DNA of 14,022 nt from Scenedesmus sp. ARA3 (Eukaryota > Chlorophyta > Chlorophyceae > Sphaeropleales > Scenedesmaceae). How positions within the stretch are numbered: position 1 is the stretch's first letter; each line of letters starts with the position of its first letter. Positions 1,168 to 13,966 of this stretch are shown one piece after another. Made by a program: the position numbers and the translations under genes. The notes beneath the pieces are model-generated. The model saw only the letters and a list, made by a program, of their open reading frames with translations. It did not search any database and was not told the DNA's origin. Where the stretch lies: the NCBI GenBank assembly GCA_004335835.1, contig RWJK01001611.1, positions 1 to 14,022 on the forward strand. The letters run 5' to 3'.

Positions 1168-2738
1168 CGTTGTTGCTGGCCAGGCCTGCCGCTGCTGTCT
1201 CAACCTGCAGCTCGCTGCCACCTCTTGTGGCCAGCAGGCGCTCCAGCTGCTGGGTCAGCTTCCTGCAGCAGCAGCAAGGATTACACATGAGTATTGCATT
1301 CACCAAGCGTGAAACTGTCGTTTGTCACGTAATGTGAGTTGAATATGCACACCAGTATGTGGCATGCGCCATGGGCTGCCGGCACTCCAGCTGCTGGGTC
1401 AGCTTCCTGCAGCAGGGTTGCATTGTGCACATGCACACCCGACTGCTGACCGCGCCATGAGCCACAGCTACTGGATATTTTCTGAATACCTTTGAACACA
1501 AAGTTGGTGAGAGCGGTGAGGAGCTGAGGGACAAGCCAGCCAGCACATCCGCATCGCTTTCTTGGCTGTCGTTCAGGTGACATACGGCACACCTGCAGGA
1601 GTATCCCTTCAGCAGCTAAGCAACACGCAAGGAAGCAAGACCAGCCACCACATACAACCCACAGCATGCTGTTCTTGCCTACCTGCGGCCATTCTTGCCC
1701 TCCCATTTGTCCTCCTCTGTCACTTTTGAATCCGAGCATAGCATCCAGCTCACCACCCGCACATCAACCACGGGTTCAGCAACCACAAATCCTCGCAGCC
1801 CAGATTCGGCCGGCGGCTGCGCCAGATACTTCAGCTGCTGCTTTAGACCGTACGTCACCCGTACAGGGCCGGGTTCAAACCAAGCGGAGGCGTCACCAGA
1901 CTCCACAGCAGCTGAAATGGAGGGTGGCAGAGGCACTGGCTGGCCCTGCAGGGGTACAGCACCAGGGAAGCCGGCTGCTGCTGCTTCGCGCTGAGCTGCT
2001 GCAGCTACTGCAGCAATGCGGTCTGCCACGCTGGCACCAGCAATACCACTGCTGCTGCTGCTGTTGGTGAAGAGCTGCCGCAGGCCCTCCCAAATCTGCT
2101 GCAGCTGTGCACTTGCGGGTCCAGATCGTGTACCAGGCCCCCTGCAGGCACCCCCTGGCACTGCGGTGCTGCCGGTGTCACTAGTTACGCCAGCATCACT
2201 AGTTACACCGCCGGGTGCCTCAGTCAGCTGCACATACCACGCCTGGCCATCTGCAGCGCTGATTGCAATCCCCAGCACTGGCCACGACCACTCCTTGCTG
2301 TCTGCTGCACTGCTGGCAACCTTTGCTGCTGCTGCTGCTGCAGTGCCAGCAGCAGCAGGAGGCCTAGGCAGAGACTGGCCAGGTAGTGCATTCAAACCTA
2401 GCCCTGCCCTCAACCCGGAACCCCCCAGCTGATCAGAATCAAAAGCAAGGGAGAAGCCCCAAGCTTGGCAGCGTGCAAGATCTGCCAGCATCTGCTGCAA
2501 GCTGCTGCTGTTTTGCACAATGGTGATGCCACGCTGCTGCAAGCCAGGCGGCGGCTGCGGCAGACGGATGCGTGGCGGAGTGCAGATGAAAGGCACAGGC
2601 ACTGCCACCGCTGCTGGTTCTGAGGCTTCAGTGTGCATTCCAGCAGCAGCTGCTGCTGCAGGGCTGCCAGGCACAGCTGGACGCTTGGCTGCATGCTGCT
2701 GCTCATCACCTTCGCTCAATCGCTTGCGGCCGGCAAGG

Positions 2739-13966: not shown

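Follow-up and report, generated by a model that had tools for sequence, protein, structure and literature searches.

How does an intron come to be filled with truncated copies of the exon ends that border it? This question is raised by the window analyzed here, a stretch of 14,022 nucleotides from the green alga Scenedesmus sp. ARA3 that lies at the very start of a 78-kb contig; the assembly comprises 87 Mb in 1,567 contigs, and the next 10 kb contain letters in their first 22 bases only. A first-pass annotation had claimed that the introns of one gene in this window hold tandem partial copies of their own exon-intron junctions, and had proposed as causes a recurrent duplication at splice sites, a way of growing introns or an array of regulatory decoys. 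The exon-end copies are real, and that interpretation, taken as a whole, is partly supported by our analysis.

The gene concerned is POLQ-like and is transcribed from high to low coordinates. When its innermost complete exons are joined at GT-AG borders, the result is a single open frame of 20 exons, designated Ea to Et (the end of Em being shifted by one base); the gene extends past both ends of this chain. Among its Pfam domains, DEAD, Helicase_C and HTH_61 score above the cut-off and POLQ_helical below it, so that both the SF2 helicase part and the helical domains by which membership of the POLQ family is judged are found. The best named match of the protein is a DNA polymerase theta subunit of Monoraphidium neglectum (40% identity), and an unnamed protein reaches 45%. 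Runs of CAG/CTG are very common in exons and introns alike (window 2740-2947, 5695-5743, 10207-10267, 11842-11959, 13969-14022 and elsewhere), and the predicted protein includes long glutamine runs. An array of 16 copies of the pentamer GATCA is situated within the Ej-Ek intron (window 7042-7125).

Copies were detected by self-alignment of the window, a check that the first-pass annotation had itself suggested, and by a Smith-Waterman search of the introns flanking the exons of the modelled chain. The self-alignment recovered the copies, and at an identical threshold no pair arose in shuffled sequence, either in a single round, which could stop short, or in five full-length rounds, a result that rules out a chance origin of the pairs. 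The Smith-Waterman search revealed 28 truncated exon-end copies at 9 junctions: four at the 5' end of Eb and five at its 3' end, five and two at the corresponding ends of Ed, three at the 3' end of Ef, two at each end of Eg, four at the 3' end of Ep and one at the 5' end of Eq. The features of the window are as follows.

1683..13969, minus strand: POLQ-like gene, 20 modelled exons Ea to Et (GT-AG exon chain, single open frame)
13110..13839, minus strand: intron Ea-Eb with four to five acceptor-type copies of the Eb 5' end (self-alignment, Smith-Waterman, printed units)
13254-13309, 13340-13425, 13503-13543, 13748-13803 and another near 13658, minus strand: the individual Eb 5'-end copies
12950..13109, minus strand: complete exon Eb (160 nt), with echoes to either side
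12277..12902, minus strand: five donor-type copies of the Eb 3' end, spacing 124-138 nt, with two alternating intron types
10832..11558, minus strand: five acceptor-type copies of the Ed 5' end (exon Ed, 10612-10755)
10399..10526, minus strand: two copies of the Ed 3' end, one stopping short of the junction
9091..9392, minus strand: three donor-type copies of the Ef 3' end (exon Ef, 9463-9847)
8790..8971, minus strand: two acceptor-type copies of the Eg 5' end, the one at 8968 without AG (exon Eg, 8567-8722)
8300..8528, minus strand: two donor-type copies of the Eg 3' end, period 127-128
4810..5234, minus strand: four donor-type copies of the Ep 3' end, the outermost without GT (exon Ep, 5308-5420)
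4558..4646, minus strand: one acceptor-type copy of the Eq 5' end, 130 nt upstream (exon Eq, 4362-4504)
1372..1408, minus strand: acceptor-type copy of the 5' end of an exon that starts near 1262, outside the chain, 144 nt upstream (pair 1228-1264 / 1372-1408)
3470..3628, no strand assigned: intron-only tandem pair of period 98, not a junction array (self-alignment)

The exon that starts near 1262 contributes the tenth junction and one more copy, which brings the total to 29 copies at 10 junctions in 8 introns and matches the earlier tally of about 29 copies, ten junctions and at least eight introns; an additional, decayed copy of the Eb 5' end can be discerned by eye near 13658 in the printed units. 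Both kinds of copy described at the outset are present, those with an exon 3' end plus donor downstream of the exon and those with an acceptor plus exon 5' end upstream of it; they align over 29-89 nt of the exon end (donor-type) or 33-85 nt of the exon start (acceptor-type). At the nine modelled junctions the complete exon is the innermost copy, as had been asserted, and it is these innermost exons whose chaining gives the single open frame with SF2-helicase domains. Neighboring copies in the regular POLQ arrays are spaced by ~121-146 nt. The splice dinucleotide is retained in 25 of the 27 POLQ copies that reach it; AC stands in place of AG in the Eg copy at 8968, and TT in place of GT in the Ep copy at 4814. 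The lost AG, the indel in the Eb copy at 13503-13543 and the stops located after the exonic portion in the copies near 10881 and 11009 were lesions already reported, and all were found again. The Eb copies reach near-complementary portions of their exon (0-83 and 83-160). In the outer Eb copies (window 12414-12761), an arginine codon is altered at two positions, from CGG to AGA, and is still synonymous, a mark of a coding past.

The phenomenon extends well beyond this gene. We examined 20 stretches taken from every 50th contig number, four stretches with kinesin hits and the window, in all 225 kb of readable sequence, and found 80 tandem arrays, 50 of which have a smallest period of 100-149 bp, some others being near twice that. 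Of 189 direct pairs, 178 lay within 700 nt, and a single inverted pair was found. Array-bearing stretches encode SelO, a GDSL lipase, the condensin subunit Cnd1, a ribosomal L10-like protein, RPL3, a kinase and a kinesin. The presence of arrays in many genes of the sample rules out an accident of a single gene, and the scan for exon ends within introns likewise showed that this is not a purely local event. No array was found in 8 of the 25 stretches, two of which are mostly or wholly N. The stretches L007, L008, L009, L014, L018 and L029, each with about 10 kb of readable sequence and with predicted introns, have zero arrays; L026 has 15 and L011 has 11, and the distribution between genes is strongly uneven.

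With the gene-model setting used for the sample, 34 of the 40 boundaries of POLQ are recovered and 15 of its 20 exons are exact (13 of 20 after the arrays are collapsed); hence the models are approximate, as are the echo counts, the array classes, the copy and spacing tallies over 37 junctions given below and the counts of synonymous (S) and nonsynonymous (N) differences outside POLQ that depend on them. The collapsed models provided 156 internal exons with a length of 100 nt or more, and matches with a score of 36 or more were counted: 18 exons had their 3' end echoed in the downstream intron and 18 had their 5' end echoed in the upstream intron; echoes on the wrong side numbered 2 and 2 (4/312). 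When exon ends were compared with the introns of other genes, 312 trials yielded a single match (1 and 0). Probes taken from the middle of exons matched once in 94 trials (0 and 1, out of 47 each). An echo of one end or of both is found for 30 of the 156 exons, about one in five, divided between the window (6/9), the every-50th sample (23/106) and the kinesin-chosen stretches (1/41). Exon-end echoing is widespread and occurs in unrelated genes. This should serve as a warning to annotators, for a gene finder takes truncated copies with good splice sites for exons; for example, the exon chosen for SelO seems to be a copy, to judge from its paralogue and from a SelO motif.

The RPL3 gene provides an example whose exons were set by homology to the protein P0122. 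The end of its exon 2 repeats 122 nt downstream at 98% identity, the start of exon 3 repeats 106 nt upstream at 96% and that of exon 4 repeats 126 nt upstream at 92%; older, decayed echoes are also seen in the printed sequence. The closest named proteins are those of Scenedesmus sp. PABB004 (84%), of a record labelled Chrzof1 (83%), which we read as Chromochloris, of Monoraphidium (82%) and of Raphidocelis (81%); an unnamed metagenome protein has 90% identity. On such protein matches, the likely source is a green alga close to the Sphaeropleales. The top-scoring RPL3 match (P0121) is a Cynara cardunculus record (63% identity, 497 residues). This record ranks above green algal proteins of 81-90% identity and looks like an odd or composite one.

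Arrays of this kind account for the extra length of the introns that contain them. The seven array-bearing introns of the POLQ chain have a mean length of 746 nt, which falls to 194 nt after subtraction of the arrays, and the mean of the other twelve is 240 nt; the earlier suggestion of a way of growing introns fits these figures. One intron, Ea-Eb, collapses on subtraction to 36 nt, impossibly short for an intron. Copies within an array have common joints and alternate in type, and the head-to-tail units of regular period are those of a minisatellite-like structure. Among 72 copies at 37 junctions, 47 have spacings of 85-160 nt; six of the 72 spacings (0-8 nt) resemble split alignments and two (728 and 2107 nt) are doubtful, and all of them were kept in the means. 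The exonic share of the unit is widely spread (30 units; Kolmogorov-Smirnov P = 0.26 against a uniform distribution from 0.1 to 0.9).

The two parts of a unit have diverged to very different extents. In the same 72 copies, the exonic parts have a mean identity of 0.93 to the exon and the adjoining 40 intronic nucleotides one of 0.61, the random value being 0.35, and the identity of the intron flanks hardly drops as the exonic identity drops. The POLQ copies differ from their exons at codon positions 1, 2 and 3 in 37, 15 and 98 cases. This corresponds to 102 synonymous and 48 nonsynonymous differences (149 and 81 between copies), in comparison with an expectation, out of 150, of 40.5 synonymous differences when matched for base composition and 49.6 when matched for context; CpG or trinucleotide context is therefore insufficient as a cause of the synonymous excess. 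When the variable sites among copies are counted once, they comprise 42 S and 29 N, and copies differ from each other at 5.7% of zero-fold and 22.6% of four-fold sites. Related copies are not independent in any of these S/N statistics. Moreover, 55 of the 98 third-position differences are at sites where the exon has A or T, which implies that much of the third-position signal consists of changes in the exon, each of which is scored anew for every copy. The approximate counts from ten other stretches, with data from nine, were 153 S and 109 N between copy and exon and 108 S and 94 N between copies (32 junctions, 51 copies). A model-free measure of mismatch periodicity in 69 arrays is in agreement (407 against 360.9 +- 7.4), the arrays of the window being borderline (P = 0.05); the three junctions of the RPL3 stretch, with 4 S and 5 N, have no synonymous excess. 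We dropped the "copy-private" changes (27 S, 26 N) as a proof of selection on the copies, since the oldest copies preserve, in addition, changes that the exon itself underwent earlier.

By our own reckoning, drift after birth could raise the S/N ratio to a ceiling of about 0.74, even with conversion by the same exon. The observed ratios of 1.15-2.1 exceed it, and hence either the donors were diverged functional sequences (alleles or paralogues) or the copies are constrained. In some pairs (Eb units 2 and 4, Eg units 0 and 1) the introns are more alike than the exons. The exonic and intronic parts of a unit have thus had different histories, which points to exchange confined to the exon sequence. 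The copies are not simply drifting, and we infer that they exchange sequence with functional exons. A transfer of array sequence is suggested, from sequence comparison, for the SelO paralogues on contigs C210 and C1499, which have an array in common, intronic spacers included, at 77-79% identity; outside the array, little aligns beyond a few exon pieces and simple repeats. The array in question lies at 4040-4780 of L011 and at about 4230-5060 of L032 (C1499:36001-42000, reverse strand), and the similarity suggests that array sequence has moved between SelO loci.

Are the duplications directed to the junctions? In the sample, the approximate classes are 40 junction, 11 intron-only, 9 intergenic, 19 exonic and 1 multiple array, and random placement of whole units would give 24.8, 25.3, 13.3, 14.6 and 1.9, respectively; the ratio of 40:11 exceeds the expected 50% with P = 3e-5. 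Placement by aligned lengths only predicts 15.1 junction and 30.8 intron-only arrays, and for arrays of at least 90% identity the ratio is 22:4 against 12.6:12.8. A cruder, earlier placement test gave no junction excess (33 against 29.1 +- 4.1). The models misclassified at least two junction arrays (1227-1408 and 12276-13026) as "exonic". The decay of an intron-only pair should be roughly twice as rapid as that of a pair in which one member is under constraint, and we therefore regard an expectation near 66% as fair, which reduces the observed 78% to a weak excess. If units of 125 bp are placed at random in the POLQ gene with its arrays collapsed, 66% of the junction plus intron-only cases span a junction, and 9 of 10 were seen to do so (P about 0.09 by hand). 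Slower decay of exonic sequence could explain part of the junction excess; splice-site targeting is not required as a cause, and some targeting is possible.

We consider it probable that these arrays originate from recurrent tandem duplications of ~125 bp which cross a single junction, are tolerated, later exchange sequence and affect many genes. The starting point is what can be observed directly, namely exon-end copies in a one-sided geometry, with periods that are mostly 100-149 bp and with common joints, and their occurrence in unrelated genes. A short tandem duplication with its two breakpoints in an exon and in the neighboring intron, respectively, would generate head-to-tail units of ~125 bp. 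Such duplications would hit roughly arbitrary places; units confined to an exon, or enclosing one entirely, would disrupt the protein and disappear, while a unit across a single junction would be tolerated, since the frame is restored by the innermost splice site alone. Each event would add one unit to the length of the intron. Unequal exchange and gene conversion would subsequently make the arrays grow, shrink and mix; functional exon sequence (the copy's own exon, alleles or paralogues) would renew the exonic part of each copy, and the intronic part would be left to drift. Any ~125-bp duplication with its ends in exon and intron gives the observed geometry, and a mechanism specific to splice sites is thus unnecessary. 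Of the earlier proposal of a recurrent duplication at splice sites, the recurrence is likely and the action at splice sites is not required. What counts against our account is the junction excess, the 36 nt left for the Ea-Eb intron, the approximate gene models, the uneven occurrence and a synonymous excess, both copy to exon and copy to copy, beyond the reach, by our reckoning, of drift or single-exon conversion; on this last point, the exchange step requires diverged donors. A more far-reaching version, in which exon ends with their splice site are copied genome-wide in units of ~125 bp and coding sequence is kept true by exchange or selection, so that introns serve as living libraries, seems to us a tentative and rather doubtful proposition. 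If duplication and exchange do operate as outlined, introns could lengthen widely out of their own exons, without mobile elements, in a process that is rarely visible. Each step leaves a readable copy, for which the exon is the reference and the codon positions are the selection gauge; a single genome thus allows one to measure the rate of duplication, the tolerance of extra splice sites and the exchange of sequence between copies and exons.

Other explanations have to be set against these data. Were the copies functional, as spare exon ends, splice decoys or exon-matching sequence kept by purifying selection, one would expect the distribution of differences over codon positions, the contrast of zero-fold and four-fold sites and the similar leaning of the other stretches; splice dinucleotides are, in addition, retained in 68 of 75 copies, and the conservation exceeds that due for dead sequence. 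Yet the copies are incomplete and in many cases run into stops, with no evident coding use, RPL3 has no more S than N at its three junctions, splice-site retention is about what overall identity predicts, and even four-fold sites are better conserved than the intron flanks, where about 39% of positions differ, a contrast that selection acting on amino acids alone fails to explain; we regard such functions as unlikely. It is distinctly improbable, in our opinion, that the duplication mechanism is aimed at splice junctions, for instance through a coupling to splicing or to exon-end chromatin: the excess over uniform placement, which persists at 90% identity and above, speaks for it, but intron-only and intergenic arrays do occur, the exonic share of the unit is without a peak, the POLQ arrays are near the random expectation, exonic sequence keeps pairs detectable for longer and the cruder test lacks an excess.

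An assembly that had strung together haplotypes or strains similar in their exons and dissimilar in their introns would also produce synonymous, allele-like differences beside unlike flanks. We find this very hard to credit, given that the copies of an array have common joints and alternating intron types, that the periods are regular across unrelated contigs, that up to six units per junction would need many haplotypes, that RPL3 is at a single locus and that the POLQ sequence search returned one full match and two diverged relatives. Exon-derived segments inside introns are also a prediction of the Rogers model, in which introns are gained by tandem duplication of coding sequence and would themselves be young duplications. 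That model puts the copied start of the downstream exon right after the donor; here AG precedes 31 of 34 5'-end copies and GT follows 37 of 41 3'-end copies, so the copies carry pieces of an existing intron, and we judge the model extremely unlikely to apply. Introners or other mobile elements are rejected by the near absence of exon-end matches in the introns of other genes, and whole-exon duplication or mutually exclusive exons by the scarcity of mid-exon matches and wrong-side copies.

The closest known structures share some, but not all, of these properties. Intronic minisatellites have head-to-tail units, higher-order alternation and unequal exchange, as do the arrays described here; the unit in our arrays differs in that it includes both the end of a coding exon and a splice site, in that its exonic part is preserved and in that its sequence changes from junction to junction while its length is nearly constant. 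Human introns in tandem arrays of direct repeats, reportedly described by Zhuo et al. in 2007, are said to be similar in that tandem repeats multiply splice sites. Tandem-duplicated intron 3' ends may also be a feature of Polytomella; if they are, there would be a described relative whose splice sites are multiplied by tandem repeats, and the novelty of the present case would fall. In a potato RdRp gene, one tandem duplication crossing an intron-exon boundary multiplied the splice signals and created a new intron (PMC4974935); the duplication likewise spans one boundary in our alga, but with many units per junction, in many genes and with no sign of a new intron position. In a few Drosophila genes, tandem duplications of proto-splice sites (exonic AG/GY) have become introns, so that copied exon sequence similarly lands inside introns, with none of the ~125-bp arrays at existing junctions that are seen here (PMC2891723). 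We recognized no genome-wide version of junction arrays in the open-access literature searched and, to the extent of that search, what Scenedesmus presents is new as a genome-wide phenomenon, built from kinds of event that are already known.
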